Origin: Agapetus fuscipes
Taxonomy: Eukaryota > Arthropoda > Insecta > Trichoptera > Glossosomatidae
Assembly (NCBI GenBank): GCA_951799405.1
Contig: OX637352.1
Span: 15,138,820-15,202,819, forward strand
DNA length: 64,000 nt
Reading direction: 5' to 3'
Shown: positions 2,926-59,008 of the stretch, in pieces
How positions within the stretch are numbered: the first letter of the stretch is position 1
Layout of the letters: each line of letters opens with the position of its first letter
The notes under the pieces: model-generated
Told to the model about the DNA's origin: nothing
The model's input: only the letters and a program-made list of their open reading frames with translations
Databases searched by the model: none
Translations under genes and position numbers: made by a program

Positions 2926-3218
2926 TCACCCTATCACTCCTTTTTTCCCAATCATACTTCTTAGAAAGTCCCTTTCAACCAGTCTATGTCATGATAGGAA
3001 TGAGTGGGGGAGACTCTGCAGAGGTTCTGGCCACCACTAAGGGAACGGCGCAAGCGTAACAGTTTAGGTACATAGTGGGACACAGAGGCAAGTATCCATC
3101 TTAATACGACTCTTCCCACCTGAATGGCTACATACACCTTGGGGCAAATCCGCCACTGCCGGTCATTCTCATGTTGACATACTATTCAAATACACTCCAA
3201 CATTTCAAGCTAAACTAA
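2926..3218. other. Intron DNA of ZF copy 0, shared with ZF gene 2 intron
   Basis: This is near-identical to 57812-58115 and lies immediately 3' (minus strand) of a ZF first exon in both places. It includes a degraded LINE 3' remnant. It marks the left edge of the segmental duplication visible in this window. Confidence 0.7.
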
Positions 3219-3229
3219 TTAATACTGAC

Positions 3230-3485
3230 CTGAATACCCCTCAATGTTGATTCTCTCCACAAGCACGCGGCATTCCTTCAACAAGCCATCAGGTGGAGGG
3301 GCAGAGTCCTCATTCTTCACATTATCCACCACAGAGTCCTCGGCAAGCCATTCCTTCTTAATATCCAGTCTCTCTTGCTTCACATCGCTCTCTTCAATGT
3401 ATATTTGTTCATCTGAGTGCGCTAGTTGTGCATCCATAAACTCCGAGTCCGCCTCCACCTTCTCAACCTTCACAACAATGTCCAT
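3230..3485 (-). CDS. C2H2 zinc-finger gene, copy 0, exon 1
   Basis: First coding exon of 85 codons plus one base. The protein starts MDIVVKVEKVEADSEF and is acidic, with several short K-x-E motifs (VKVE, VKQE, IKKE) of the kind used for SUMO attachment. There is no finger in this part. The exon ends CAG with a donor GTCAGT on the minus strand, at the same place as in the two paralogous exons (36038 and 58127). The ATG context is conserved in all copies. The matching finger exon should lie left of the window edge; the intervening DNA holds LINE fragments and SINEs. Reading past the donor gives only a few extra codons before a stop. Whether this copy still has a finger exon cannot be seen here. 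Confidence 0.7.
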
Positions 3486-3609
3486 CGTGACTTAATCACT
3501 TGTGCAAAACAAGCAAACAGCAATCCTCCAATATCTATTGGACTTTACATCTACAAAACTACTAATTTAATCAAAAGCCGGTGAGACGAATATCTGTCAG
3601 TGGCCGATG
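3486..3609. promoter_or_regulatory. 5' flank of ZF copy 0 (conserved among copies)
   Basis: The 120 bp upstream of the ATG are almost the same as 58383-58510 and partly the same as 43803-43990. This is the candidate 5' UTR/promoter of the family. No TATA box stands out. Confidence 0.45.
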
Positions 3610-5566: not shown

Positions 5567-6075
5567 TACTTATGAAAGAAGCCAAACTTCACACGAACAT
5601 GAGCCTTACAACTTTTGCCGCCATTTCTCTGCACGAAGTGGCATTGGCAAAAGTTAACAAAGTTTTAACAGCATGGGTTTAAATTAAAAATGGTTCACTT
5701 TGCCAATGTCACCCCTGTTTCAGGGAAGGACGGCAAGAGTTGCAGGGCTGATGTTTATTTGAGATTGGGTTTTTATATTGTAGGTCCACATGGGGCATGT
5801 GTTAGTGCGAAATTATACATGTTTGCTTGTGGGAATGCATTTAATATAAATCTTAAATGATATATATCTTTGCAGCTTAGATTAGATTAGATTAGGGATC
5901 AGTTTCATATTATCCTATTAATGAGGGAACAAAATAATACCAACAGGTGGACCCAAACTATAGTAGCTATTAGATAACTAGAACAATTATATGCTAAATT
6001 AAATAATAAACTAATGAAGGGCTACAAAGCAAATGCCTTATCAACTAATGAAGATGAAATTAAATTAAGAGCGCT
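5567..6075. repeat. Duplicated flank, matches 50290-50575
   Basis: Collinear with 50290-50575 except for the R1 insertion at 5690-5893. It ends in AAATTAAATTAA, where the two copies diverge (palindrome in one, unrelated AT-rich DNA in the other). Confidence 0.7.
5690..5893 (+). repeat. R1 repeat, 5'-truncated
   Basis: It starts within the body (AAAATGGTTCACTTTGCC) and ends in (TTAGA)n. The paralogous site at about 50397 lacks it, so it inserted after the duplication. Confidence 0.75.
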
Positions 6076-6984
6076 CTCGAATATTTTTAATTTTAAAATC
6101 TGCGTTCGCTTAATTCCTATCTATGCCACAGCGGCGCGCTCGGCGCTCTACTCTCTCGTTCCTTTGTAGTTTTTGAAAGGTACGTATATTAACTTATAAT
6201 ATCTGTGGACTAGAAATTATTTTAACCAAAAAAGACATATATATATATGTATATGTCTCAACTTACTTACGAAAATGGTCATTAGTAATAAAAATAACAA
6301 AGAACTTCACAGTTGCATTTCCATGTGTACAAAAAACTCGGCACAACGAAAAAAAAATCTTGAATGTTGGTACCATTTCAAATAACGGCTGCCGACTAGA
6401 CCGGAAATAACTAGAGTTGACAGATAACACACGTTATAAATATTGTGATCGCCAAAGTCGTGCCAATATTTCATATTTTAACTTTATCACTCATTTCATT
6501 ATAACCACTGCAACGTGTGACAGGAGAGAAACGCAAGTGGTAGCATGTCGCTGCCTTTGTTCTTGTTTGCCGTAGAGACCATTAAGCTAATTTTACATGA
6601 GAAATGTTTGCATGTGTACTGGACCAATGTGTCTTATGAAAACAGGAAATTGATTTCAAAAATATTTAAAACAACTCTCACATTACGAATTTTACGCTTA
6701 TTCTTAGCTCAGATTGTGTAGAATTTTATTCTTATGACAACTGCAGTATGTATCAAATCAGCACGTTAGTTTCCGCTCCTCTATGTTATTACTCATAGTA
6801 GCTATGCAGTACAGTTTTTGCCAGCCATTTTTTTATGCCGGTCAGATAGACTCAACCTTTTCCATCCTTCAATAGCAATACTAAAAATGTTCAACAATAA
6901 ATCAATAGTTTCGCAAATTATATTTTTAGTAATAATAATATCAGGATGATTTTTGCGAGCGCTGTTTTTGTGTAAATCACACCC
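6076..6984. other. AT-rich DNA without recognisable feature
   Basis: No coding frame with family features was found. There is a short AT dinucleotide run near 6236-6258. Confidence 0.4.
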
Positions 6985-9435: not shown

Positions 9436-9748
9436 ACACATATAGTGTAACTTCTTGCCGCGTTATCCCCGAAGGGGTCGCATGTGGTGAGTTGAACCTA
9501 TTTATTTTTACAGGTAAGGGGGCCGGCCTTACGCCAACCACTTCAGTTGAAGTGGGAATTTCTCAGCTCCCGAGGGGGCTGGTACTCATTTCTTGTGAAG
9601 GCTGAGTAAACCTCGCCGGTATTTATATTATGGGGTTTGCAATACACACCGAAATAGGAAATCATTTCTGACACCCTCCTCGGTGGGATTCGAACCCGAG
9701 CTCACGGGGTAGAATGCAAGCACTCTACCAACTGAGCTATCGACCGGA
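9436..9748 (-). repeat. S1 tRNA-derived SINE (with 8774-8795 across the LTR)
   Basis: Reverse copy. On the minus strand it starts GGTCGATAGCTCAGTTGG (A box) and has a perfect B box GGGTTCGAATCCC, followed by the family body (GTGAAGGCTGAGTAAACC; TTTTTACAGGTAAGGGGGCC). Its 3' end (GCTACTAAGCT) lies beyond the solo LTR. Transcription would be by RNA polymerase III. Confidence 0.85.
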
Positions 9749-10072
9749 CACCGATGAAAAATCATAAAAGTAGGGAAAAACTAATGTTTTCATTAACAAG
9801 AAAATAATATTTAAACACATATGATGCCTAATTAGATAACACATTTTAGGTACTATTAAAATTCACATGATGCATATTAGGGTGTTGAAATATTTGAACA
9901 TGTGAAAAAAAAAGAGTAGGTAAAGGAACTCTTGAAAATATGTACAAAAAAATATTTATGTTCTAAAGCAATTCCTTGATTCTTAATGACCTAACACATT
10001 GCTGTAGAAAGATTTTTCATTAATATATAATATTCTCTTCTACAGAAATTATCTCCAAAGTTAAATACCTAA
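9749..10072. repeat. Duplicated AT-rich DNA, matches 53998-54313
   Basis: Collinear with 53998-54313 upstream of the paralogous Harbinger element. No gene seen. Confidence 0.65.
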
Positions 10073-10762: not shown

Positions 10763-10856
10763 TAATACATATTTTTTTTACAGAATTCTCAAAAACATAT
10801 GACATTGAACAGACGTAATTTCAGCAGTACAATAATAATCATATGCTAGTCCAGTC
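10763..10856. repeat. Duplicated spacer, matches 55011-55105
   Basis: Short AT-rich stretch between the Harbinger element and the S1 SINE, repeated in the right-hand unit. Confidence 0.6.
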
Positions 10857-11172
10857 CGGTCGATAGCTCAGTTGGTAGAGTGCTTGCATTCCATGCCATG
10901 AGCTTAGGTTCGAATCCCGCCGAGGGTGTCAGAAATGATTTCCCGTTTCGGTGTTTATTTCAAACCCCAAAATAAAATACCGGCAAGGCTTACTCAGCCT
11001 TCACAAGAAATGAGTACCAGCCCTCTCGGGAGCTGGAAAACCCCCACTTCACCTGAAGTGGTTGGCGTAAGGCCGGCCCCCTTACCTGTAAAAATAAATA
11101 GGTTCAACTCGCCACATGTGACCCTTTCGGGAATAACGCGGCAAGAAGTTACACTATATGTGTAGCTTAACA
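10857..11172 (+). repeat. S1 SINE, full length
   Basis: A box TAGCTCAGTTGG, B box GGTTCGAATCCC, body and 3' end TATATGTGTAGCTTA, without the usual GTTGCG-T run. The paralogous copy at 55107 is split by an R1 insertion. Confidence 0.85.
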
Positions 11173-12633: not shown

Positions 12634-13823
12634 CTATTTAGAGTGTTTTATTAAATGCTTTGTCAAGTGCCTTGAATAATTTGTTCTATACTCACACTGA
12701 TTGCAAACAAAACGTTTATACTCGGAATGTGTTTGTATATGATTTTTTAAATTGCGGGAACTTTTAGCTTTATAATTACACTGATCACAAGCAAATGGTT
12801 TATGCTCAGAGTGAGTAAATTTGTGAATTATTAAGGTGTGTGCTAGCTTACATTTAAAATCACACTGATCACAGGCAAATCCTTTATGCTCAGAGTGCGT
12901 TAACATGTGACGTTTCAAGTAGCTTAATAGTTTGACTTTATAAGAACATTGATTACAAGTATATGGTTTAAACTCAGAATGTGTTAATTTGTGTCTTTTT
13001 AATATACTTGGTTTATGAGCCTTGTAATCACACTGATCACAGGCAAATCCTTTATGCTCAGAGTGCGTCAACATGTGAGCTTTCAAGTATCTTAATAGTG
13101 TGGTTTTGTAAGAACATTGATTACAAGTATATGGTTTATCCTCAGAATGCACAAATTTATTATTACGTAATGATTTTGCTAGATTACATTTGTAATCACA
13201 CTGATCGCAAGCAAACGGTTTACACTCAGAGTGTGTTAACAAATGGTCTTTCAAGTTGTACAAGCGTTTGGCTTTATAATCACACTGATCACAGGCAAAT
13301 CCTTTATGCATAGAGTGCCTCAACATGTGAGCTTTCAAGTATCTTAATAGTGTGGTTTTGTAAGAACATTGATTACAAGTATATGGTTTATCCTCAGAAT
13401 GCACAAATTTATGATTACGTAATGATTTTGCTAGATTACATTTGTAATCACACTGATCGCAAGCAAACGGTTTACACTCAGAGTGTGTTAACAAATGGTC
13501 TTTCAAGTTGTACAAGCGTTTGGCTTTATAATCACACTGATCACAAGCAAACGGTTTAAAATCAGAGTGTATTAATTTGTGTATTTTTAATATACTTGGT
13601 TTATGAGCCTTGTAATCACACTGATCACAAGCAAAGGATTTAATTTTGAAGTTTGTTAATTTTTCCCTATGGTTTTTTTTCATTGATCCAGAAGCACATT
13701 TGTATGTTTCCTTGCAGCAACTGAACATCTGATGGATCCTCAGGAGTTTTCTTCCATTGACTTTGTAGCTGCAGGCATGGCACACATGATCCACCTTGAC
13801 TGAGTCCCTCTCACAACTGTCAG
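12634..13823 (-). CDS. C2H2 zinc-finger gene 1, exon 2 (12 fingers)
   Basis: Probable nuclear DNA-binding protein. The minus-strand acceptor (TTTACAG before CTGACAGTTGTGAGAGG) joins exon 1 at 36038-36284 in frame: 247 + 1190 nt gives 478 aa. It opens with an atypical Cys-rich unit (CHACSYKV...RIHQMFSC), then twelve C-x2-C-x12-H-x3-H fingers of the form FACDQCDYK. Linkers are H-S-E-x-K-x rather than TGEKP. Fingers 2-4 and 5-7 are a near-perfect tandem duplication (about 252 bp). In finger 6 the first zinc-binding His is Asn (LRNNKFVH), so that finger probably does not fold normally. It ends at TAA. The intron is about 22 kb because it contains the 13941-35630 element. No transcript evidence is available. 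Confidence 0.8.
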
Positions 13824-13940
13824 CTGTAAATATAACATTGCTCATTAGTTTTTGACACACTTAATGTAATTTTACACCTAATGCCCACCGACATAATGTC
13901 CAAAGACATAATATAGGTATGAATGAACTGAAAGAAGTAT
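13824..13940 (-). other. Intron edge of ZF gene 1 with LINE scrap
   Basis: Matches 56792-56906. The last ~24 bp (GAACTGAAAGAAGTAT) are a LINE 3' scrap into which the giant element inserted. Confidence 0.7.
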
Positions 13941-15125
13941 CCCTCGAAAAAATTCTAGCTCAGTCTAGCTAGACTTTTTTTTGTATTTTCTGACTCCAGA
14001 CTAGAACTTCCAAGAAGTTCGCAGAACGAGACAGCTATCGTCAGAAAAACAAAGAATTGCATAGACATATTTGTGAGACATTTGAAGAAAAACTTAGATA
14101 TCGTAAGAACTCATGAGCTATCTGAGAATTAACATGATATTCCTAGATGAAGCGAGATGTTTCAAAGACTGTACGCCATAGACCAAACTAGATTACCAGA
14201 GGTTTCCTGAGACTTAAGGCCCTTAGTGAGAATTATGTAGATGTAGCTAGAAGCATGACTAAGTCACTAACGAGAAATACATAGATTGCGTTAGAATAAC
14301 CCGGACACCATTGTGAAGATAGACTAGTACAGATTAACCGAGATGAAACCCGAAAATTAAATCTTAAGCCCTACCTAGATCAGGTGAGATGTACAGAGAT
14401 TGAGTAAAAGCACCCAATTATTGAAGATAAACAAAGACAAAGCGAGAATGTCCTAGACCGACTCAGAGACATTCCAATACAACCTGCCGGGACTGTCTAA
14501 GATATTCCTAGACAGGAGGCAGGAACAAAGTCCAAGACGGTCACATACTTCCTGAGACTCTCCTAGACCGCCCCAGAAGAATACTGAAGGAGCCTGCCTG
14601 GACTGTCTAAGATAACCCTAGACAGTGGGAGAAAAAACAAGTCCAGACACCCGACCTAGATTCACTAAGACCGCTGTAGATGCTCAGGTTCCCTTGCCCT
14701 GGATTCACCTAGAATGAGCAAGGAGTATTGAGACGCCTTCCTTTGCGGCCTAGACCTATCTAGATTCACCTACACCGCTGCAGTGCTCAGGTGCATTGCC
14801 CTGGGATTCACCTAGAGTAAGACAGGAGTAATAAGACGCCGTCCTGCTTTGCGACCTAGACCTTCCTAGATTCACCTAGACCGCTGCAGATGCTCAGGTG
14901 CCTTGCCCTGGACTCACCTAGAATGAGCGAGGAGTACTAAGACGCCTTCCTTTGCGGCCTAGATCTTCCTAGATTCACCTAGACCGCTGCAGTGCTCAGG
15001 TGCATTGCCCTGGGATTCACCCAGAATGGACAAGGAGTATTGAGACGCGTTCCTTCGCGACCTAGATCATCATAGATTCACCTAGACCGCTGCAGTGCGC
15101 AGGTATGCCTTGCCCTGGGATTGTA
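13941..15125 (+). repeat. Left arm of the giant element, tandem CTAGA-rich repeats
   Basis: The outer ~700 bp carry scattered CTAGA/TCTAGA motifs. From about 14600 to 15120 a ~104-bp unit (CCTAGACCGCTGCAG, GCCCTGG, GAGTA-TGAGACGCC) repeats about five times. It is the reverse complement of the right arm. Confidence 0.8.
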
Positions 15126-26570: not shown

Positions 26571-27090
26571 AACAGTGACAAAACGATACATGACCAAACA
26601 ACAAAGTAACAAAACAGCACAGTGACAAAAAAGCACGGGGACAAAACAAACAGTGAAAAAACAGGAAGGTGATAAAAGAGCACAGTGACATAACAGCACA
26701 GTGACAAAAAATCACGGTGACAAAACAGCACAGTGACACACCAGCACAGTGACAAAACAGCACAGTGACAAAAAATGACGGTGACAAAACAACACAGTGA
26801 CAAATCACCACAGTGACCAAACTACACGGTGACAAAACACCACAGTAACAAAACAGCACAGTGACAAAGCAGCACGTTGACAAAACAGCATAGTGACAAA
26901 ACAACACGGAGACAAAAAAGCACAGTGAAAGAACAGCACAGTGACACAACAACACGGTGACAAAACAACACGGTAACAAAACAGCACAGTGACAAAACAG
27001 CACAGTGACAAAACAGCACAGTGAAAAATCAGCACAGTGTCAAAACAGCACAGTGACAGAACAGCACTTTAACCAAAAATCACAGTGACA
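26568..27090. repeat. 16-bp minisatellite (ACAGCACAGTGACAAA)n
   Basis: About 32 imperfect copies of a ~16-bp unit. The long minus-strand frames rich in Cys-His-Val (26491-27035) come only from the repeat. The array begins inside an R1 copy at CAGGGGTGAC, whose GTGAC-GGCAAA-GTGA string resembles the unit. Confidence 0.92.
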
Positions 27091-27235
27091 TAACACAAGT
27101 ACACTAGCAGACTCGTAAAAGTTCACGCTTACACATGCTGCATGTGGACTTACAACATAAACACCCAACTCAAATGAACATAAGTGCAACTCTTTTTGCA
27201 CTTATGTTCATTTGAGTCAAAAATTTTAATATTTG
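27091..27235. repeat. R1 remnant and short hairpin
   Basis: A reverse R1 piece (TTCACGCTTACACATGCTGC). It ends in the exact hairpin CAAATGAACATAAGTGCAA - CTCTTT - its complement at about 27172-27215. Confidence 0.7.
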
Positions 27236-31148: not shown

Positions 31149-31505
31149 GTTTTAAATAATATAAATTATATTCCTTTGCCCTCCGTGGGGATTCGAACCC
31201 ACGACCCTTCATGTCAATTTATTTATTTTTAGATTGCCGCCTTTGGTTTTATACGACTCATCTATAATAGACTTCAGGTAGTCTTTTGAATTACCAACAA
31301 AGAAATTAACAATACATTAGTCCCACAAGTTAAGCTGATTCCTAGAAAACCCTGTCTACCTGAGGACTCATTTTGTTGACATAATGACTTGTGTTTATAG
31401 TTACTTGCAGATTGTTTTTTTTTTTTCTGGTTTTTATTTGGTTGGCACTGTGTGACTGTATAGTCACAGATTTCATTTTTTAAAAAAGAAAAATATTTTT
31501 TTTTT
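31149..31505. other. AT-rich DNA with isolated B-box
   Basis: 31178-31212 holds a minus-strand tRNA-like 3' half (GTGGGTTCGAATCCCCACGG). No A box is close by. The rest is unremarkable. Confidence 0.35.
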
Positions 31506-31862
31506 CCGGTCGATAGCTCAGTTGGTAGAGTGCTCGCATTCTACCCCGTAAGCTCGGGTTCGAATCCCACCGAGGAGGGTGACAGAAATGACAGAAATGA
31601 TGTCATGAAATGATTCCTATTTCGGTGTTTATTTCAAACCCCATAATAAAAATACTGCCAAGGTTTACTCAGCCTTCACAAGAAATGAGTACCAGCCCCG
31701 TCGGGAGCCAAGAAACCCCCACTTCAACTGAAGATGTTGGCGTAAGGCCGGCCCCTTACCTGTAAAAATAAATAGGTTCAACTCGCCACATGTGACCCCT
31801 TCGGGGATAACGCGGCAAGAAGTTACACTATATGTGTAGCTTAGTTGCGTTTTAATCTAATC
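31506..31862 (+). repeat. S1 SINE, full length
   Basis: A box TAGCTCAGTTGG, B box GGTTCGAATCCCACC, an ACAGAAATG duplication just after the head, body, and 3' end GTAGCTTAGTTGCGTTTT, running into (TAATC)n. Confidence 0.88.
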
Positions 31863-34689: not shown

Positions 34690-35630
34690 AATCTTGGTAG
34701 ACGGTCCTCATAGGTCAGCGACACTCTAGGCAGGTCTAGGTCCCGAAGCAACAGCTGATTATAAGTACCAGCATGAGTCCCAGGTCAAGGCACCTAGGCA
34801 TCTGCAGCGGTCTAGGTGAATCTAGGGAGGTATAGGTCGCAAAGGAAGGCGTCTTAGTACTCCTCGCTCATTCTAGGTGAGTCCAGGGCAAGGCACCTAG
34901 GCACCTGCAGCGGTCTAGGTAAATCTAGGAAGGTCTAGGCCGCAAAGGAAGGTGTCTCAGTACTCCTCGCTCAGTCTAGGTGAATCCAGGGCAAGGCACC
35001 TGAGCATCTACAGCGGTCTAGGTGAATCTAGAGAGGTCTAGGCCGTAAAAGAAGGCGTCTCAATCCTCCTCGCTCATTCTAGGTGAATCTAGGGCAATGC
35101 ACCTGAGCACTGCAGCGGTCTAGGTAAATCTAGGGAGGTCTAGGCCGCAAAGGAAGGTCTCTCGGTACTCCTCGCTCAGTCTAGGTGAATCCAGGGCAAG
35201 GCACCTGAGCATCTACAGCGGTCTAGGTGAATCTAGGAAGGTCCAGGTCGCGAAGGACGACGTCTCAATGCTCCTCGCTCATTCTAGGTGAATCTCAGGG
35301 CAAGGCATTTGAGCATCTCCATCGATCTAGGTGAATCTAGATGGCCCCAGCCCTTACCGGATGACAGCTGGTAATTTCTCATTCATCCTAGGCGAATCTC
35401 AGTTAAACGACTAAGTACTGTAATCTGCAGCGGTCTAGGCTCGTCTGAGTGTGTCGAGGTTACGCATCTCACTTCTTCTCTCTAATTCTAGACTAATCCT
35501 GACTAAATGATCACGTACAGCATCTAGGTAAGTCTCGGGAAAAGGTTTCATTTTCTTACTAAGTCTAGCTGCCTGTTCTTCAAAATGGCTAGCTAGATCT
35601 AGATAGATTAGGCAAGATTTTTTTCGAGGG
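34690..35630 (-). repeat. Right arm of the giant element, ~103-bp tandem repeats
   Basis: From about 34795 to 35340, six copies of a ~103-bp unit (GCAGCGGTCTAGGT, TCTAGGCCGCAAAGGAAGG, CTCCTCGCTCATTCTAGG) are the reverse complement of the left-arm units. The outer ~250 bp carry scattered CTAGA motifs and end TTTTTTTCGAGGG. Confidence 0.85.
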
Positions 35631-35789: not shown

Positions 35790-36037
35790 TTCCTTAACCG
35801 TAAAAATAAATAGGTCCCGAATCGCCACATGCGACCCCTTCGAGGATAGCGCTGGCAAGAAGTTACACTTTATGTGTAGCTTAGTTGCGTTTGTTTTTGG
35901 TCCATCCATACCTTTCACAGCCTCTACCACGGCATCCATTTATTATTGCAACATATACTCTCTTTGCCGGTCATTCTCATGTTGACATACTATTCAAATA
36001 CACTCCAACATTTCAAGCTAAACTAATTAATACTGAC
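35790..36037. other. Intron remnants: S1 3' end and LINE scrap
   Basis: 35795-35895 is the 3' part of an S1 b variant; 35896-35960 is an antisense LINE scrap; 35960-36037 matches the intron start of the other ZF copies. Confidence 0.6.
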
Positions 36038-36284
36038 CTGAATACCCCTCAATGTTGATTCTCTCCACAAGCACGCGGCATTCCTTCAACAAGCCATCAG
36101 GTGGAGGGGCAGAGTCCTCATTCTTCACATTATCCACCGCAGAGTCCTCGGCAAGCCATTCCTTCTTAATATCCAGTCTCTCTTGCTTCACATCGCTCTC
36201 TTCAATGTCTATTTGTTCATCTGAGTGCGCTAGTTGTGCATCCATAAACTCCGAGTCCTCCTCCACCTTCACAACAATGTCCAT
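36038..36284 (-). CDS. C2H2 zinc-finger gene 1, exon 1
   Basis: 82 codons plus one base, nearly identical to the other two first exons but lacking three codons (VKVEEDSEF instead of VKVEKVEADSEF). It is acidic with K-x-E motifs and ends CAG with donor GTCAGT on the minus strand. The phase matches the acceptor at 13823, giving a continuous frame into the 12-finger exon. The start codon lies only 87 bp from the end of the 7.4-kb foldback element, so the original promoter has been displaced unless it is very short. Confidence 0.78.
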
Positions 36285-36370
36285 TGTGACTTATCTCTCG
36301 TACGAAACAAACAATAACAGTCCCTGCAATAGTTCTGGCTGTGAATCTACTAAATTACACTCAGAAAATA
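36285..36370 (-). promoter_or_regulatory. Remaining 5' flank of ZF gene 1
   Basis: Only about 86 bp separate the ATG from the foldback insertion, ending with one copy of the target duplication CAGAAAATA. This flank differs from the conserved upstream DNA of copies 0 and 2. That conserved DNA reappears beyond the insertion at 43803. Confidence 0.4.
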
Positions 36371-36619
36371 ACCGGTGTGAAGACAGCCTGACAGGTGCTA
36401 GCCTGACAGCTGAGGAAATCTGGGGATGTAAACGAAAAAACCCGTTTCCCTAAATGTATGGATTGGTTTTTTTTTAGAGAAAAAATTATATTTTAACAAT
36501 TTATAGGTATAAAAACATTTAAAGACCAAATACGTTCACAAATAAACTTCATTAATCTATCGCAAACAAAAATATACACGAAAAAGCGTATCCTTCACAT
36601 ATTCATGAAGCTTTGTAAA

Positions 36620-38680
36620 TGCCTTTATGTCAACTGTTTGTGAAAAACGAAATCATAGACTGTATTTTTTTACGACTGATTATGTTGACTATGGATGTAC
36701 TCAAGCATAATCAGCAATAAAATTTGGGAGATTCTACCCAAGCCATAGAGAAAAAAAATGTTGAAATTTTCATAGTCATATGAAAAATCATATTTTCTGC
36801 GATGGAAGATTGTGAAAAAACGAAAACATAGACTGTACTTTTTTACGATTGATTATGTTAACTAGGGATGTATTCAAGCATAATAAGCAATAAAATTTAG
36901 GAGATTCTACCCAAGCCATAGAGAAAAAAAATGTCGAAATTTTCATAGTTATATGAAAAATCATATTTTTGCGATGGAAGATTGTGAAAAAACTAAATCA
37001 TAGACTGTATTTTTTTACGACTGATTATGTTGACTAGGGATATATTCAAGCATAATAAGAAATAAAATTTGGGAGATTCTACCCGGGCCATAGAGAAAAA
37101 AATTGTCGAAATTTTCATAGTCATATGAAAAATCATATTTTCTGCGATGGAAGATTGTGAAAAAACGAAAACATAGACTGTACTTTTTTACGATTGATTA
37201 TGTTGACTAGGGATGTACTCAAGCATAATAAGCAATAAAATTTGGGAGATTCTACCCAAGCCATAGAGAAAAAAAATGTTGAAATTTTCATAGTCATATG
37301 AAAAATCATATTTTCTGCGATGGAAGATTGTGAAAAAACGAAAACATAGACTGTACTTTTTTACGATTGATTATGTTGACTAGGGATGTACTCAAGCATA
37401 ATAAGCAATAAAATTTGGGAGATTCTACCCAAGCCATAGAGAAAAATATTGTCGAAATTTTCATAGTCATATGAAAAATCATATTTTCTGCGATGGAAGA
37501 TTGTGAAAAAACGAAAACATAGACTGTACTTTTTTACGATTGATTATGTTACTAGGAATGTATGTAAGCATAATCAGTAATAAAATTTGAGAGATTCTAC
37601 CCAAGCCATAGAGAAAAAAAATGTTGAAATTTTCATAGTCATATGAAAAATCGTATTTTCTGCGATGGAAGATTGTGAAAAAAACGAAAACATAGACTGT
37701 ACTTTTTTACGATTGATTATGTTAACTAGGAATGTATTTAAGCATAATAAGCAATAAAATTTGGGAGATTCTACCCAAGCCATAGAGAAAAAAAAATATC
37801 GAAATTTTCATAGTTATATGAAAAATCATATTTTTGCGATGGAAGATTGTGAAAAAACGAAATCATAGACTGTATTTTTTTACGTCTGATTATGTTGACT
37901 AGGGATGTACTCAAGCATAATCAGTAATAAAATTTGGGAGATTCTACCCAAGCCAAGAGAAAAAAAAATGCTGAAATTTTCATGGTCATATAAAATTTCA
38001 TTTTTTTTGCGATGGAAGATTGTGAAAAAACGAAACCATAGACTGTATTTTTTTACGATTAATTATGTTAACTAGAGATGTAATCAAGCATATTGAGCAA
38101 TAAAATTTGGGAGATTCTACCCAAGCCAAGAGAAAAAAAAATGCTGAAATTTTCATGGTCATATAAAATTTCATTTTTTTTGCAATGGAAGATTGTGAAA
38201 AAACGAAACCATAGACTGTATTTTTTTACGATTGATTATGTTAACAAGGGATGTATTCATGCATAATCAGCAATAAAATTTGGGAGATTCTACCCAAGCC
38301 ATAGAGAAAAAAAAATGCTGAAATTTTCATCGTCTTATGAAATTTCATACTTTTTGCGATGGAAGATTGTGAAAAAAACGAAAGCATAGACTGTATTTTT
38401 TTTACGATTGATTATGTTACTAAGGGGTGTATTTAAGCATATTGAGCAATAAAATTTGGGAGATTCTACCCAAGCCATAGAGAAAAAAAAATGCTGAAAT
38501 TTTCATAGTCTTATGAAATTTCATACTTTTTGCGATGGAAGATTGTGAAAAAACGAAATCATAGACTGTATTTTTTTTACGATTGATTATGTTAACAAGG
38601 GATGTATTTTAAGCATATTGAGCAATAAAATTTGGGAGATTCTACCCAAGCCGAAGAGAAAAAATAATGGGGATGCTTTC
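36620..38680 (+). repeat. ~173-bp satellite, left arm (about 12 units)
   Basis: GATGGAAGATTGTGAAAAAA recurs at spacings of 172-176 bp (36801, 36973, 37146, 37319, 37492, 37664, 37838, 38011, 38184, 38358, 38534). Frames within it (for example 37574-37783) have no meaning. Confidence 0.95.
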
Positions 38681-38686
38681 GAAATT

Positions 38687-39033
38687 GAAAGCCGTATGAA
38701 TCCAGTTAGAATCTAACTTTTCATAAATATTTTATTTTATTTTATTTAATCAAAAAAACCATTACCATTTATTAAAAAAGAACAGTCAGTTAGCTGTGAG
38801 TTCGCGTTCTGTAAGAACAAGATCATCGTCATCATCATACTCCCCGCTGAAGAAGCCCATCGTAGGAATGGTCGAAACGTCCGAAAGCTCCAGCTCCCAC
38901 AGACCACGGTTACCGATCCCGGAAAATATCACTCTATCAAAAATAGACCGTTCTTTATTATATTTGGTAATATTTTTTTTTATTAATTAAAATATAAAAA
39001 AAGTTAAATTCCAACTGGATTCACACGGCTTTC
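38687..39033. repeat. Palindromic PLE-like centre of the foldback element
   Basis: ~35-bp inverted ends (GAAAGCCGTATGAATCCAGT and complement) surround a unique middle with a hammerhead-like core at 38847-38881. It resembles the hairpin at 50572-50810 in plan. Confidence 0.65.
38847..38881 (+). ncRNA. Hammerhead-ribozyme-like core
   Basis: CTGAAGA, then an imperfect stem (GCCCAT / ATGGTC), then CGAAACGTC. CTGANGA...GAAAC with GTC is the catalytic core of type I hammerhead ribozymes, which are known in Penelope-like elements. Deviations are one extra A before stem II and a C-T mismatch. Activity is unproven. Confidence 0.4.
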
Positions 39034-39184
39034 AAACTGGAAAGAATTCCCATAATGAAATTAGATTATATTTTTAATATTTTGGATAGTTGGTGCATTA
39101 ACACTGTAAAAATTTATATTTTCTTTAGTTATTCAAACTCTGTTATATTTTCACTCTGTTCCATTTTTTTAAGTTTTAGACACA

Positions 39185-39216
39185 AACGTTTTCGATTACG
39201 CAGTAATCATCATCAG
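39185..39216 (-). ncRNA. Hammerhead-like core, opposite orientation
   Basis: On the minus strand: CTGATGA, one T, a perfect stem GATTAC-tgc-GTAATC, then GAAAACG. The core is good and stem II perfect, with one extra base before the stem. The cleavage triplet would not be the usual GTC. Confidence 0.4.
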
Positions 39217-41302
39217 GTGGTAAAAATTATCGTTGTATATTTTTGAACATTTTCTTCTCTATGGCTTGGGAAGAATCTCCCTAATTTTATTGCTCAATAT
39301 GCTTGATTACATCTCTAGTTAACATAATCAATCGTAGAAAAATACAGTCTATCATTTCGTTTTTTCACAATCTTCCATCGCAAAAAAAATGAAATGTCAG
39401 GTGACTTTTAAAATTTCAGCATTTTTTTTCTCAATGGTTTGGGTAGAATCTCCCAAATTTGATTGCTGATTATGCTTCAATACATCCCTAGTTCACATAA
39501 CAATCGTAAAAAAAAACAGTCTAAGGTTTCGTTTTTTCACAATCTTCCATCGCAAAAAATATGAAATTTCATATGACTATGAAAATTTCAGCATTTTTTT
39601 CTCTATGGCTTGGGTAGAATCTCCCAAATTTTATTGCTCAATATGCTTAAAATACATCCCTTGTTAACATAATCAATCGTAAAAAAATACAGTCTATGAT
39701 TTCGTTTTTTCACAATCTTCCATCGCAAAAAGTATGAAATTTCATAAGACTATGAAAATTTCAGCATTTTTTTTCTCTATGGCTTGGGTAGAATCTCCCA
39801 AATTTTATTGCTCAATATGCTTAAATACACCCCTTAGTAACATAATCAATCGTAAAAAAATACAGTCTATGCTTTCGTTTTTTCACAATCTTCCATCGCA
39901 AAAAGTATGAAATTTCATAAGACTATGAAAATTTCAGCATTTTTTTTCTCTATGGCTTGGGTAGAATCTCCCAAATTTTATTGCTGATTATGCATGAATA
40001 CATCCCTTGTTAACATAATCAATCGTAAAAAAATTCAGTCTATGGTTTCGTTTTTTCACAATCTTCCATTGCAAAAAAAATGAAATTTTATATGACCATG
40101 AAAATTTCAGCATTTTTTTTCTCTTGGCTTGGGTAGAATCTCCCAAATTTTATTGCTCAATATGCTTGATTACATCTCTAGTTAACATAATTAATCGTAA
40201 AAAAATACAGTCTATGGTTTCGTTTTTTCACAATCTTCCATCGCAAAAAAAATGAAATTTTATATGACCATGAAAATTTCAGCATTTTTTTTCTCTTGGC
40301 TTGGGTAGAATCTCCCAAATGTTATTGCTCAATATGCTTGATTACATCTCTAGTTAACATAATCAATCGTAAAAAAATACAGTCTATGATTTCGTTTTTT
40401 CACAATCTTCCATCGCAAACAGTATGAAATTTCATAAGACTATGAAAATTTCAGCATTTTTTTTCTCTATGGCTTGGGTAGAATCTCCCAAATTTTATTG
40501 CTCAATATGCTTGATTACATCTCTAGTTAACATAATCAATCGTAAAAAAATACAGTCTATGATTTCGTTTTTGTACAATCTTCCATCGCAAAAAATATGA
40601 TTTTTCATATGACTATGAATATTTCAGCATTTTTTTTCTCTATGGTTTGGGTAGAATCTCCCAAATTTTATTGCTGAATATGCTTAATTACATCTCTAGT
40701 TAACATAATCAATCGTAAAAAAATACAATCTATGATTTCGTTTTTTCACAATCTTCCATCGCAAAAAGTATGAAATTTTATAAGACTATGAAAATTTCAG
40801 CATTTTTTTTCTCTATGGCTTGGGTAGAATCTCCTAAATTTTATTGCTTAATATGCTTCATTACATCTCTAGTTAATATAATCAATCGTAAAAAAATACA
40901 GTCTATGATTTCGTTTTTTCACAATCTTCCATCGCAAAAAGTATGAAATTTCATAAGACTATGAAAATTTCAGCATTTTTTTTCTCTATGGCTTGGGTAG
41001 AATCTCCCAAATTTTATTGCTCAATATGCTTGATTACATCTCTAGTTAACATAATCAATCGTAAAAAAATACAGTCTATGATTTCGTTTTTGTACAATCT
41101 TCCATCGCAAAAAATATGATTTTTCATATGACTATGAAAATTTCAGCATTTTTTTTCTCTATGGTTTGGGTAGAATCTCCCAAATTTTATTGCTGAATAT
41201 GCTTAATTACATCTCTAGTTAACATAATCAATCGTAAAAAAATACAATCTATGATTTCGTTTTTTCACAATCTTCCATCGCAAAAAGTATGAAATTTCAT
41301 AA

Positions 41303-41643
41303 CGCAAAAAAAAAAACGCAACTAAGCTACACATATAGTGTAACTTCTTGCCGCGTTATCCCCGAAGGGGTCGCATGTGGCGAGTTGAACCTGTTTATTT
41401 TTACAGGTAAGGGGGCCGGCCTTACGCCAACCACTTCAGTTGAAGTGGGGGTTTCCCAGCTCCCAAGGGGGCTGGTACTCATTTCTTGTGAAGGCTGAGT
41501 AAACCTTGCCGGTATTTTTATTATGGGGTTTGAAATAAACACCGAAATAGGAAATCATTTCTGACACCCTCCTCGGTGGGATTCGAACCCGCGCTCACGG
41601 GGTAGAATGCGAGCACTCTACCAACTGAGCTATCGACCGGACT
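41303..41643 (-). repeat. S1 SINE inserted in satellite, first copy
   Basis: Full S1 with perfect A and B boxes and an A-run head side (AACGCAAAAAA on the plus strand), followed by (TAAG) repeats at the other edge. It is identical in sequence to 42173-42513. Confidence 0.9.
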
Positions 41644-42172
41644 AAGTAAGTAAGACTATGAAAATTTCAGCATTTTTTTTCTCTATGGCTTGGGTAGAAT
41701 CTCCTAAATTTTATTGCTTAATATGCTTCATTACATCTCTAGTTAATATAATCAATCGTAAAAAAATACAGTCTATGATTTCGTTTTTTCACAATCTTCC
41801 ATCGCAAAAAGTATGAAATTTCATAAGACTATGAAAATTTCAGCAATTTTTTTCTCTATGGCTTGGGTAGAATCTCCCAAATTTTATTGCTCAATATGCT
41901 TGATTACATCTCTAGTTAACATAATCAATCGTAAAAAAATACAGTCTATGATTTCGTTTTTTCACAATCTTCCATCGCAAAAAATATGATTTTTCATATG
42001 ACTATGAAAATTTCAATATTTTTTTTCTCTATGGCTTGGGTAGAATCTCCCAAATTTTATTGCTGATTATGCTTGAATACATCTCTAGTTAACATAATCA
42101 ATCGTAAAAAAATACAATCTATGATTTCGTTTTTTCACAATCTTCCATCGCAAAAAGTATGAAATTTCATAA

Positions 42173-42513
42173 CGCAAAAAAAAAAACGCAACTAAGCTAC
42201 ACATATAGTGTAACTTCTTGCCGCGTTATCCCCGAAGGGGTCGCATGTGGCGAGTTGAACCTGTTTATTTTTACAGGTAAGGGGGCCGGCCTTACGCCAA
42301 CCACTTCAGTTGAAGTGGGGGTTTCCCAGCTCCCAAGGGGGCTGGTACTCATTTCTTGTGAAGGCTGAGTAAACCTTGCCGGTATTTTTATTATGGGGTT
42401 TGAAATAAACACCGAAATAGGAAATCATTTCTGACACCCTCCTCGGTGGGATTCGAACCCGCGCTCACGGGGTAGAATGCGAGCACTCTACCAACTGAGC
42501 TATCGACCGGACT
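42173..42513 (-). repeat. S1 SINE inserted in satellite, second copy
   Basis: Exactly 870 bp from the first copy, with the same flanks. It was therefore multiplied with the satellite, not by a second retrotransposition. Confidence 0.9.
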
Positions 42514-43083
42514 AAGTAAGTAAGACTATGAAAATTTCAGCATTTTTTTTCTCTATGGCTTGGGTAGAATCTCCTAAATTTTATTGCTTAATATGCTTCA
42601 TTACATTTCTAGTTAATATAATCAATCGTAAAAAAATACAGTCTATGATTTCGTTTTTTCACAATCTTCCATCGCAAAAAGTATGAAATTTCATAAGACT
42701 ATGAAAATTTCAGCAATTTTTTTCTCTATGGCTTGGGTAGAATCTCCCAAATTTTATTGCTCAATATGCTTGATTACATCTCTAGTTAACATAATCAATC
42801 GTAAAAAAATACAGTCTATGATTTCGTTTTTTCACAATCTTCCATCGCAAAAAATATGATTTTTCATATGACTATGAAAATTTCAATATTTTTTTTCTCT
42901 ATGGCTTGGGTAGAATCTCCCAAATTTTATTGCTGATTATGCTTGAATACATCCCTAGTTCACATAATCAATCGTAAAAAAAAACAGTCTATGGTTTCGT
43001 TTTTTCACAATCTTCCATCGCAAAAAATATGAAATTACATTTTTTAAAAAAAAAAAAAAATAAAAAAAAAATAAAAAAAAAAA

Positions 43084-43117
<34 letters not shown>

Positions 43118-43788
43118 AAGTGAATTGTAACAAAGTTAAAAAAGTATTTCTATGTACAAAAGTACAGTCTATGCTTTCGTTTTTTCACAATCTTCCATCG
43201 CAAAAAGTATGAAATTTCATAAGACTATGAAAATTTCAGCATTTTTTTTCTCTATGGCTTGGGTAGAATCTCCCAAATTTTATTGCTTATTATGCTTGAT
43301 TACATCTCTAGTTAACATAATCAATCGTAAAAAAATACAGTCTATGATTTCGTTTTTTCACAATCTTCCATCGCAAAAAATATGATTTTTCATATGACTA
43401 TGAAAATTTCAATATTTTTTTTCTCTATGGCTTGGGTAGAATCTCCCAAATTTTATTGCTGATTATGCTTGATTATGTTACTAATTAATATAATCAGTAG
43501 TAAAATTGTAGTGTCTATGTTTTAGTTTTTTCAATAATTTGCATTTTACTAAAAGTGCTCTAGTTATTGATTGCCGAGATTTTTATTACATTTTATTTAA
43601 TTTTGTAGTAGATTATTGTATAATTATTCATTTGGTTTAGTTTTATAAGTATTTTTTATAGTTTTATTGCTTTTTAATTAAGTTTAAATTATTTATTTTG
43701 TAATATGGGGAATTTTTGTTCAACCGTCAGGCCATCCCAACTGTCAGGCTGGCACCTGTCAGGCTGTCTTCACACCGGTCAGAAAATA

Positions 43789-43987
43789 CAATTATTGGAG
43801 CAGAAGTCCATCGTGACTTAATCACTTGTGCAAAACAAGCAACGATATCTATTGGACTCTACACTCCATGTCTTTCATATCCGGAGGCGGTTTCGGGTTT
43901 TCACAGCTATTATTTTAACTTTAACTTGATCAAAAGCACAATCAAAAGCACAGAGTATGTATTTCAAAAGCCAGTGAGACGAATACC
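43789..43987. repeat. Upstream duplication, copy B start
   Basis: From GTCCATCGTGACTTAATCAC (43808) this matches DNA just upstream of the ATG in copies 0 and 2, but no exon precedes it, so it is a truncated exon-1 boundary. Confidence 0.6.
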
Positions 43988-48825: not shown

Positions 48826-49112
48826 AACGCAACTAAGCTACACATATAGTGGCGAGTTGAACCTATTTATTTTTACAGGTAAGGGGGCCGGCCTTACGCC
48901 AACCACTTCAGTTGAAGTGAGGGTTTCCCAGCTCCCGAGGGGGCTGGTACTCATTTCTTGTGAAGGCTGAGTAAACCTTGCCGGTATTTTTATTATGGGG
49001 TTTGAAATAAACACCGAAATAGGAAATCATTTCTGACACCCTCCTCGGTGGGATTCGAACCCGAGCTCACGGGGTAGAATGCAAGCACTCTACCAACTGA
49101 GCTATCGATCAA
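48826..49112 (-). repeat. S1 SINE
   Basis: Reverse copy with intact A and B boxes; a ~40-bp deletion removes the TTCTTGCCGCG block near the 3' end. Confidence 0.85.
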
Positions 49113-55853: not shown

Positions 55854-56791
55854 CTATTCAGAGTGTTCTATTAAATGCTTTTTCAAGTAATTAGAATAAT
55901 TTGTTCTAAACTCACACTGATTGCAAGCAAAACGTTTATACTCGGAATGTGTTTGTATATGATTTTTTAAGTAGAGGGAATTTTTAGCTTTATAATTACA
56001 CTGATCACAAGCAAATGGTTTATGCTCAGAGTGAGTTAATTTGTGACTTCTTAAAGTGCATGGTAGCTTACATTTGAAATCACACTGATCACAAGCAAAT
56101 CCTTTATGCTCAGAGTGCCTCAACATGTGAGATTTCAAGGTGCTTGTGAATTTTGTTTTAAAATCACACTGATCACAACTAACTCCTTTATGCTCAGAGT
56201 GTGTTAATATGTGATTTTTCAAGTTGTGTCGGCGCTTACATTTGAAATCACACTGATCACAGGCAAATCCTTTATGCATAGAGTGCCTCAACATGTGAGC
56301 TTTCAAGTATCTTAATAGTGTGGCCTTATAAGAACATTGATTACAAGTATATGGTCTATCATCAGAATGCACAAATTTATGACTACTTAATGAGGTTGCT
56401 AGCTTACATTTGAAATCACACTGATCACAAGCTAACAGTTTACACTCAGAATGTGTTAACAAATGATCTTTCAAAGTGCGCAAGCGTTTGGCTTTATAAT
56501 CACACTGATCACAAGCAAACGGTTTAAATGCAGAGTGTGTAATTCTGTGTCTTTTTAATATACTTGGTATACGAGCCTTGTAATCACACTGATCACAAGC
56601 AAAGGATTTAACTTTGGAGTTAATTATTTTTTTAGTATTGGTTTTTTTCATTGATCCAGAAGCACATTTGTATGTTTCCTTGCAGCAACTGAACATCTGA
56701 TGGATCCTCAGGAGTTTTCTTTCATTGACTTTGTAGCTGCAGGCATGGCACACATGATCCACCTTGACTGAGTCCCTCTCACAACTGGCAG
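55854..56791 (-). CDS. C2H2 zinc-finger gene 2, exon 2 (9 fingers)
   Basis: Acceptor TTTACAG precedes CTGCCAGTTGTGAGAGG on the minus strand. With exon 1 (58127-58382) the coding length is 256 + 938 nt = 397 aa plus stop, in frame. It starts with the same Cys-rich unit as gene 1 (CHACSYKV...QMFSC), then nine C-x2-C-x12-H-x3-H fingers, all with both His present. Linkers are H-S-E-x-K type. Relative to gene 1 it lacks the tandem triplet of fingers, and its helix residues differ (for example RIPSILKRH, KFTSTLKSH), so its DNA target should differ. It is the best candidate in the window for a functional host gene. Its role is inferred to be transcriptional regulation in the nucleus; the target is unknown. 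Confidence 0.85.
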
Positions 56792-56914
56792 CTGTAAATT
56801 ATAACAATGCTAATTAGTTTTTGACACATTTAATGTAATTTTACACCAAATGCTCACCGACATAATGTCCAAAGACATAATAGATATGAATGAACTGAAA
56901 GAAGTATGCAAGGG

Positions 56915-57519: not shown

Positions 57520-58126
57520 AAATAAATAACCCGTAAAAATAAATAGGTCCTGAATCGCCACGTGGGACCCCTTCGAGGATAACGCAGGCAAGAAGTTACA
57601 CTATGTGTGTCGCTTAGTTGCATTTTTTTTGGTCCATCCATGCCTTCCATACTCGGTCTTCCCCTACCACGACATCCATCTATTCTTGCAACATATCCTT
57701 TTTTTGTCAGTCTTTCCTCATTCATTCTCTCCATATGTCCAAACCATCTTAACAAACCTCTTTTAATCTTCACTTCCTCTTGCACCACTTTCTTCTCTTA
57801 CAAATTTCATCAATTTCATTCCTCACCCTATCACTCCTTTTTTCCCAATAATACTTCTTAGAAAGTCCCTTTCAACCAGTCCATGTCATGATAGGAATGA
57901 GTGGGAGAGACTCTGCAGAGGTTCTGGCCACCACTAAGGGAACGGCGCAAGCGTAACAGTTTAGGTACATAGTGGGACACAGAGGCAAGTATCCATCTTA
58001 ATACGACTCTTCCCACCTGAATGGCTACATACACCTTGGGGCAAATCCGCCACTGCCGGTCATTCTCATGTTGACATACTATTCAAATACACTCCAACAT
58101 TTCAAGCTAAACTAATTAATACTGAC
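57520..58126. other. ZF gene 2 intron: S1 3' end, LINE scrap, conserved intron start
   Basis: 57530-57628 is the 3' part of S1 b variant; 57640-57870 is an antisense LINE fragment; 57812-58126 matches 2921-3229. Confidence 0.6.
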
Positions 58127-58382
58127 CTGAATACCCCTCAATGTTGATTCTCTCCACAAGCACGCGGCATTCCTTCAACAAGCCATCAGGTGGAGGGGCA
58201 GAGTCCTCATTCTTCACATTATCCGCCACAGAGTCCTCGGCAAGCCATTCCTTCTTAATATCCAGTCTCTCTTGCTTCACATCGCTCTCTTCAATGTCTA
58301 TTTGTTCATCTGAGTGCGCTAGTTGTGCATCCATAAACTCCGAGTCCGCCTCCACCTTCTCAACCTTCACAACAATGTCCAT
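58127..58382 (-). CDS. C2H2 zinc-finger gene 2, exon 1
   Basis: 85 codons plus one base, starting MDIVVKVEKVEADSEF. It differs from copy 0 at only a few positions (DEQIDIEE against DEQIYIEE). Acidic, K-x-E-rich, no finger. Donor CAG|GTCAGT on the minus strand. Splicing to 56791 keeps phase and makes a Gly-Tyr-Ser-Ala junction. The 5' flank is of the conserved type shared with copy 0. Confidence 0.8.
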
Positions 58383-59008
58383 CGTGACTTAATCACTTGT
58401 ACAAAACAAGCAAACAGCAATCCTCCAATATCTATTGGACTTCACATCTACAAAACTACTAATTTAATCAAAAGCCAGTGAGACGAATACCTGTCAGTGG
58501 CCGATGCCACAGGCCGATGCTCAGAGCTGTCATGCAAGATCCGGATCAATGAGATCGTGTCACGGGCCACGGCAAATCTGTCAAGGATAACTCGTCTACA
58601 GACAGCTCGGTCATTGGCATTGCGGTCACGGACGATTCGGTCACACGACAGTTGTGCCAGACGACTTTTCTGTCACATGTAATGTAAAATTCACGTACAT
58701 CGATGAACGTGATGAAAATCTCAACCTTGTAAAACGTCACTTTTGAAAGATAATCGTGATGTTTTTTGATTGGCGTAAGGCATCCCTGCCTTTGTGACCA
58801 AAAATTTTTTTTTAATGAAATAATGTCGCGTGCCACATGCCATGGAAATAAAAATGCATCAAATGTTTGTGTAACTTCAGATTTTTAATAAAAATAAAAA
58901 TTAATACACGGAGGAAAATAATTAAGTAGGTACATTAATTAAGCAGAAAATACAGGTCGCTATTTAAATATATTTTTAATACTTTATCTTGCCCTCTATG
59001 ACATATGT
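58383..59008. repeat. Segmental duplication, copy C, with promoter region
   Basis: Upstream of ZF gene 2. Collinear with 3486-3617 + 4123-4620 and with 45655-46140. It lacks the hAT MITEs of both. A ~150-bp stretch after TTTAATACTTTATCT is deleted relative to copies A and B. Confidence 0.7.

Follow-up and report, generated by a model that had tools for sequence, protein, structure and literature searches.

Here we describe an insertion of 7,409 bp at positions 36371-43779 of a window of Agapetus fuscipes DNA (OX637352.1); the window is the whole 64-kb stretch analysed, and coordinates count from its first letter. The insertion very probably belongs to a multi-copy, apparently non-autonomous family of cut-and-paste transposons of foldback build, which disperses satellite arrays and is moved by an enzyme most likely of Mutator type. 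Copies of the family have discrete ends and target-site duplications and are dispersed. The arrays lie within the copies and differ in size, and similarity is mirrored near the centre. It has long been asked how satellites get into gene regions and move from locus to locus, and a family with many copies and clean duplications makes insertion, array growth and homogenisation traceable copy by copy.

Boundaries and terminal repeats

The window element is flanked on both sides by the same 9 bp, CAGAAAATA, as the sequence-only reading of this DNA had claimed; 9-mer pairs drawn at random from the rest of the window were identical in 47 of 2,000,000 draws. The inverted ends, put at 39 bp in that reading, hold up as well, with 39 of 41 nt matching against a mean of 10.7 and a maximum of 33 in about 200,000 random pairs. 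Each end carries two CCTGACAG repeats at a spacing of 15 bp, and the right end has a diverged third at a further distance of 17 bp. On the left they appear as a pair of AGCCTGACAG-type repeats with this 15-bp spacing (36385-36397 and 36400-36412, the terminal inverted repeat (TIR) plus the next base), and on the right as two CTGTCAGG repeats (43738 and 43753) and the diverged third (43721), in the TIR with its adjoining bases. A terminal motif followed by subterminal tandem repeats of 12-15 bp is the end layout of the Mutator-like elements (MULEs) Muta1 and Muta5, and the window element has it, although the layout alone is not diagnostic. The parts of the element are as follows.

36362-36370, left target-site duplication CAGAAAATA, flush with the element end
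36371-36411, plus strand, left TIR with the palindrome ACCGGT at its tip
36412-36637, plus strand, left flanking domain, about 226 nt, unlike the right flanking domain
36638-38662 (end approximate), plus strand, left arm, 12 satellite units of 173 bp, lineage A
38664-38731, plus strand, left inner domain, 81% identical to its inverted partner at 38989-39056
38786-38953, middle domain, 48% GC, single copy in the window element
38989-39056, minus strand, right inner domain, inverted partner of 38664-38731
39057-39245, right-side inner segment, no left counterpart aligned, 96-99% identical in L014, L016, L017 and L022
39246-43533, minus strand, right arm, 20 satellite units of 173 bp, partial three-unit higher-order pattern and two interruptions
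41273-42142, first copy of an 870-bp block, three units (one shortened) plus a dispersed repeat at 41300-41655
42143-43012, second copy of the block, 864/870 identical to the first, dispersed repeat at 42170-42525
43013-43192, A-rich stretch replacing about one unit of the right arm
43534-43738, minus strand, right flanking domain, about 205 nt, unlike the left flanking domain
43739-43779, minus strand, right TIR
43780-43788, right target-site duplication CAGAAAATA, flush with the element end

Beyond about 41 nt there is no inverted similarity until the arrays begin. The two flanking domains show no convincing similarity to each other, their local alignment scores being reached by 438/500 and 88/500 shuffles; a weak signal remains in the global score, which 13/500 shuffles reached. 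The possibility that these domains are decayed arms or decayed inverted repeats is unsupported by the alignment scores. Because no inverted repeat runs unbroken from the terminus into the arms, we speak of a foldback build and not of a plain long-TIR element.

Copies across the genome

In the genome of the window (618,241,784 bp in 148 contigs), the exact end word ACCGGTGTGAAGACAGCC occurs 183 times (79 + 104), and a reversed control gave no occurrence. We took the first 100 of these sites and paired facing plus and minus ends that lay no more than 17 kb apart. Pairing used exact ends only, so degenerate copies are under-counted. This yielded 26 pairs with ends 1.8-17 kb apart. Nineteen of them were read whole; of the seven larger pairs we read the ends and, in six cases, a middle slice as well. 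With two adjoining pairs merged as one composite and the window element added, the set comprises 26 loci.

Exact duplications of 9 bp flank 12 of these loci and exact duplications of 8 bp another six; three more loci have a single mismatch and five have no duplication. Exact 8-9 bp duplications are thus present at 18/26 loci, and at 21/26 when up to one mismatch is allowed, compared with 0/650 and 1/650 in mismatched pairings. The duplicated sequence varies between loci. Several independent insertions therefore carry duplications within the 8-10 bp of foldback elements, and the 8 or 9 bp seen at the 18 loci also lie within the 8-11 bp of MULEs. The mobile foldback element proposed by the sequence-only reading, and its expectation that other insertions would carry duplications, are both upheld by these counts. 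The composite of L017 and L018 (G000:C5:13937320-13949827) consists of two tandem elements with the terminal-repeat word CACCTGTC between them. It is bounded by a common outer 9-bp duplication, CGAATCACA, and perhaps moved as one.

Satellite arms and centre of the window element

The consensus unit of the arms is 173 bp long and mean unit identity is about 90%, so that the arrays qualify as a satellite in the sense of homogeneous tandem units of 100 bp or more. The unit was not found elsewhere in the 64-kb window outside the element. Opposed repeats of about 173 bp around a palindromic centre had been described from the letters alone. The opposed repeats stand, with 12 plus and 20 minus units, and the centre is an imperfect inverted repeat. 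Satellite units do make up both arms, but the arms are not unbroken to the termini and the right arm is interrupted, by the A-rich stretch and by a dispersed repeat that lies within the 870-bp block and is also found elsewhere in the window. This dispersed repeat, of about 315-350 bp, has many full or partial copies (41300-41655, 42170-42525, 9436-9749, 10853-11169, 31505-31853, 48849-49108 and others); by eye it has a tRNA-like end, and ARAGORN and Rfam (at the gathering score) found nothing in it.

Left-arm units L08-L12 find their best matches in their mirror partners in the right arm, R14-R18, in order and at 94-99% identity, an arrangement that 0/5000 shuffles reached. The innermost right units, R19 and R20, have no mirror partner, and the right arm has a three-unit period. 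The outer units were amplified separately.

The middle domain stands out by its GC content, 48% compared with 21-33% in the other segments of the element. We considered it as a transposase remnant or captured gene, but its minus-strand frame (KERSIFDRV...LTAN*) had no Pfam, PDB or protein match. In a small sample (L043 and L044 against L014 only), the frame showed 15-16 non-synonymous changes and one synonymous change, and coding constraint on the middle domain is not supported. On the minus strand of the right inner segment, at 39160-39235, CTGATGA ... GAAA resembles a hammerhead-ribozyme core. This candidate was dropped, as Rfam gave no such match and the fold was no better than that of shuffles.

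Anatomy across copies and satellite lineages

Twenty elements were available whole, the window element included and L017 and L018 counted as two in the tabulation of arrays. Tandem units of 171-173 bp lie between the ends in all 20, so the unit does not occur only apart from the terminal sequence. In 16 of the 20 the arrays run plus and then minus with a single switch, an order that is identical when read from either strand, and the remaining four (L010, L021, L025 and L027) have a single array. Runs vary from 1 to 38 units. Inverted tandem-repeat arms around a middle domain, the layout of foldback elements, are therefore present. Eight end sites were also inspected with 1.5 kb on either side, two of them being the ends of L009; units were present at six, on the inner side only, and two had no units in reach.

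Nine elements (L011, L013, L014, L016, L017, L018, L020, L022 and L024) share the left flanking domain of the window element over 238-267 nt, at 84-98.5% identity, and the other ten have only its 94-126 outer nt, at 74-94%. The right flanking domain is found at full length and 92-99% identity in the same nine elements and in L027; the remaining nine match over 125-189 nt at 71-76%, L010 over only 43 nt. The middle domain has a narrower distribution, occurring in 5/19 other elements, at 93-99% in L014, L016, L017 and L022 and over 61 nt in L020. The inner domain recurs together with it in these five. Both domains also appear in the middle slices L047 and L048, and a diverged version in L043 and L044. 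The units themselves fall into five lineages.

Lineage A: window element, L014, L016, L017, L020, L022
Lineage D: L011, L013, L018, L024, L027
Lineage C: L009, L010, L015, L021, L026
Lineage C2: L025
Lineage B: L012, L019, L023

Identity between consensus units is 87-100% inside a lineage and ranges from 47% (B-D) to 82% (A-D) across lineages. End domains of one type go with lineages A and D and those of a second type with B, C and C2; L027 is mixed. We compared arms between two-armed elements (six of lineage A, four of D, three of B and two of C), leaving out L015, in which one side is a single unit. In lineage D the nearest unit in another element came from the same arm for 93/95 units, which indicates that the arms were inherited with the element.

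The sequence-only reading had called the satellite nucleosome-length. Unit length is 171-173 bp in all of lineages A, B, C, C2 and D even though A and B are only about 53% identical, but selection to match a nucleosome is not supported by the indel rates. Between lineages, indels per substitutions came to 3/78, 2/62, 1/30, 2/46, 4/81 and 0/32, values that mostly fall within the intra-lineage range of 0.014-0.127, and unit length is constant because the indel rate is low. In L015, an element of lineage C, a 208-aa frame without a Pfam match lies on the minus strand (5893-6516) and is possibly captured or nested sequence.

Search for a transposase

Seven open reading frames (ORFs) from five elements were compared with Pfam, which returned reverse-transcriptase/endonuclease matches in L014 and L020 and nothing in the others. 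In the genome, PF10551 (MULE) was found at 12 places. Among these, L051-L053 are three near-identical copies with open 493-aa frames, and L051, the one scanned, matches FLYWCH and MULE domains. The three frames sit in a repeated block whose boundaries are unlike the ends of this family. L064 (6385-6992) and L065 (6727-7744), read with their flanks, show near-identical MULE blocks that have a 493-aa open frame and, on one side, a minisatellite of 15 bp (40 and 67 copies). Minisatellites are mentioned for Rehavkus and aphid Phantom elements (PMC6446971).

An autonomous relative carrying a transposase, as envisaged by the sequence-only reading, was not found among the seven ORFs or at the 12 MULE places, and the choice which that reading left between FB and Mutator-like elements can be made only as a guess. 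One candidate was L057/L061, where a MULE frame is broken about where B/C units begin. No ends within 5 mismatches lie nearby, and L062, a MULE copy 97% identical, reads on where the L061 frame breaks. We read L057/L061 as a stray MULE gene fragment and not as an autonomous member of the family. A Mutator-type enzyme would be our best guess, not a finding, based on the mix of 8- and 9-bp duplications, on an end layout like that of Muta1 and Muta5, and on the statement that most foldbacks seem to be Mutator elements (PMC4079207).

Proposed mechanism and alternatives

In the explanation that we favour, a transposase supplied from elsewhere would bind the 41-nt ends, with their ACCGGT palindrome and the CCTGACAG repeats about 15 bp apart, and would mobilise the element, probably by cut and paste. 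Insertion through a staggered cut of 8-9 bp would then duplicate the target. The arms, mirror-oriented tandem arrays of the 171-173-bp unit, travel with the ends. The three-unit pattern, the 870-bp duplication and the runs of 1-38 units could reflect arrays growing and shrinking by unequal exchange, and arrays may be partly homogenised between the arms near the centre by inter-arm conversion. Each insertion would seed a dispersed satellite array, with dispersal presumably a by-product. A stronger version, which we think less likely than not, is that of a satellite living inside the transposon. The unit would be kept as an obligate structural part through subfamilies whose units are now only about half identical; the mobile arms, which would serve the element, would be the place of library evolution, homogenisation and dispersal, and the family would be a standing source of dispersed satellites. 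If so, the arms, which are not needed in pairs, might act as repeated platforms for protein binding or phased chromatin.

Several observations weigh against the favoured explanation. No facing exact partner lay within 17 kb of 47/100 end sites, a count made with exact ends that includes one extra right end at C4, a locus paired by means of the nearer of its two right ends. The five loci without a duplication are L015, L019, L020, L024 and L029/L030; L015 is inserted in the apparent terminal repeat of a sibling element, its duplication having two mismatches, and L029/L030 may be the ends of two separate elements. None of the seven ORFs scanned in the five elements marks a transposase-bearing copy with these ends. 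Conversely, ACCGGT ends were absent within 4 mismatches from the 12 MULE places (3.1-3.3 kb read at each) and within 5 mismatches from three MULE stretches of 9-10 kb, and three MULE stretches of 8 kb held only single end words with 6 mismatches, which we judged to be at chance level. Inheritance of the arms is also less clear outside lineage D: the nearest unit came from the same arm for 97/162 units in lineage A, a weak signal, for 45/84 in lineage B, which is near even, and for 45/73 in lineage C, where mean identity is higher to the opposite arm (93.5 vs 91.6). In L061, six B/C units lie in a 9.9-kb stretch that holds no end at up to 5 mismatches. Finally, the inner domain of the window element is only about 80% identical between sides and so more diverged than the neighbouring mirror units. 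The symmetry of the arms therefore does not simply record a single inverted duplication, and the near-identity of the mirror units suggests a later exchange between arms.

Two alternatives accept a mobile family and differ on its enzyme or on the role of its arrays. Transposases of other classes, such as Merlin and hAT, also make duplications of 8-9 bp, and one of these may move the family in place of a Mutator-type enzyme. The lack of a transposase-bearing copy in the DNA read would fit this, as would the quite different boundaries of the block shared by the near-identical FLYWCH-MULE copies L064 and L065. On the other hand, a mix of 8- and 9-bp duplications together with subterminal-repeat ends has been described for MULEs (PMC5225508, PMC3169594), and MULE-domain genes, the one class searched for, exist in this genome; we consider another enzyme class unlikely. 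It is somewhat less unlikely, if still doubtful, that the satellite block is cargo captured by an ordinary short-TIR transposon, with arrays that have no role in transposition. The inverted similarity of the ends, limited to about 41 nt before unlike flanking domains begin, speaks for such cargo, and the unit block of L061 lacks ends altogether. Moreover, the four single-array copies (L010, L021, L025 and L027) have exact 8-9 bp duplications, so that either two arms are unneeded for insertion or one arm was lost later. Set against this are the presence of the unit in 20/20 whole elements, the same relative orientation in all 16 two-armed ones, and unit lineages that go with end-domain types except in the mixed L027. 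The association of unit and ends is old and, in the DNA read, exceptionless.

The other two alternatives deny a transposon, and we give them little weight. In the first, the satellite is primary, its arrays having moved or recombined alone with the terminal sequence a mere satellite flank; the six units of L061 without an end in 9.9 kb and the great variation in array size speak for it. The target duplications adjoin the ACCGGT ends and not the arrays, however, which largely refutes this idea; ends and flanking domains also recur together, and no units lie beyond the ends in the flanks read. We regard it as very improbable. An assembly artefact or chance palindrome is harder still to credit. 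Long inverted arrays are difficult to assemble, and L007 and L009 (at the same place) as well as L010 contain runs of 200 N, but twenty elements of the same plan, with locus-specific duplications, are spread over many contigs. A transposon family of foldback build remains the reading that we prefer.

Comparison with known foldback elements

Tetris of Drosophila virilis (PMC4079207) is the closest published foldback that we found to have fed a satellite, arrays of which have grown from it. Like the family described here, it is an apparently non-autonomous foldback for which no transposase was found, the tandem repeats in its arms are of satellite length (about 220 bp), its middle domain is enclosed by flanking, repeat and inner domains, and duplications are 8-10 bp long (PMC4079207). 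In Tetris, however, the flanking domain lies within the inverted repeat, which reaches up to 866 bp, whereas here about 41 nt are inverted and unlike domains follow. Allelic Tetris copies have three or four left-arm repeats, compared with runs of up to 38 units here, and three structurally complete copies have been reported (PMC4079207). Unlike Tetris, the present family has several diverged unit lineages; it is set apart from Tetris by description, not by sequence comparison. Tetris thus already shows the principle, and the present family departs from it in the short inverted terminus, the unlike but conserved end domains, the size of the arrays and the tie between satellite lineages and end-domain types.

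The TIRs of FB4 of Drosophila melanogaster are built of short repeats. FB4 shares with our family long terminal inverted repeats, a non-autonomous nature with no known transposase, duplications of 9-10 bp and a presumed MULE-type origin, but its TIRs are about 700 bp long (PMC8277862). Muta1 and Muta5, MULEs of Aedes aegypti, have 8-9 bp duplications and a terminal motif, palindromic in Muta1, followed by subterminal tandem repeats of 12-15 bp, and the authors placed Muta1 among the type 2 foldbacks (PMC5225508). They differ from the elements described here in coding for a transposase and in the length of their TIRs, 145 and 151 bp, and satellite-size repeats go unmentioned in the excerpts consulted (PMC5225508). 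The Tm1 Mutator/Foldback elements of root-knot nematodes also have composite ends built of repeats, though of about 14 bp vs about 172 bp here (PMC3169594). Duplications of 8-10 bp without a target consensus flank 45/53 complete Tm1 elements, and there are groups with and without a transposase, which is Phantom-like (PMC3169594). Galileo of Drosophila resembles foldbacks in its long TIRs, whose tandem repeats provide additional sites for transposase binding, but by its transposase it belongs to the P-element superfamily (PMC3688188). It may serve as a model for a possible role of such arms. A literature search, not specific to the species, found no published description of the present family. 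A 24-nt end had no exact match in a viral collection, and a 22-nt unit word had none in viral or prokaryote collections.

Insertion site and other features of the window

The sequence-only reading had placed the insertion 87 bp from the start codon of a zinc-finger gene. The element does adjoin a minus-strand ATG, 86 bp upstream of it, but the frame gave no Pfam match and the link to a zinc-finger gene is not shown.

36027-36290, minus strand, first-exon-like reading frame, ATG 86 bp from the element

With an inverted satellite of 7 kb this close upstream of a start codon, effects on expression could be measured. The surrounding sequence (35965-36314) recurs at about 95% identity at 3157-3516 and 58054-58413. 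C2H2 zinc-finger frames occur at 12637-13860 and 55857-56798, and a zinc-finger ORF nearby has its top-scoring protein match, 40% identical, in the water bug Ranatra chinensis. The two paralogous regions were considered as an empty site and align to near the insertion point, but they lack CAGAAAATA. The right flank (43806-43987) contains a second, diverged copy of the start-codon region 36277-36355 (compare 58377-58491), and with the paralogues lacking CAGAAAATA there is thus no clean empty site. The 5' end of the gene is locally duplicated, with the element between the copies.

Further repeats lie elsewhere in the window. A 16-bp tandem repeat (ACAGTGACAAAACAGC) runs for about 33 copies at 26572-27095. 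Tandem repeats of 103 bp at 14654-15122 and 34780-35340, about 20 kb apart, appear by eye to be the same sequence in opposite orientation. A long frame at 16933-19212 matches reverse transcriptase and, weakly, RNase H, as in a retroelement.

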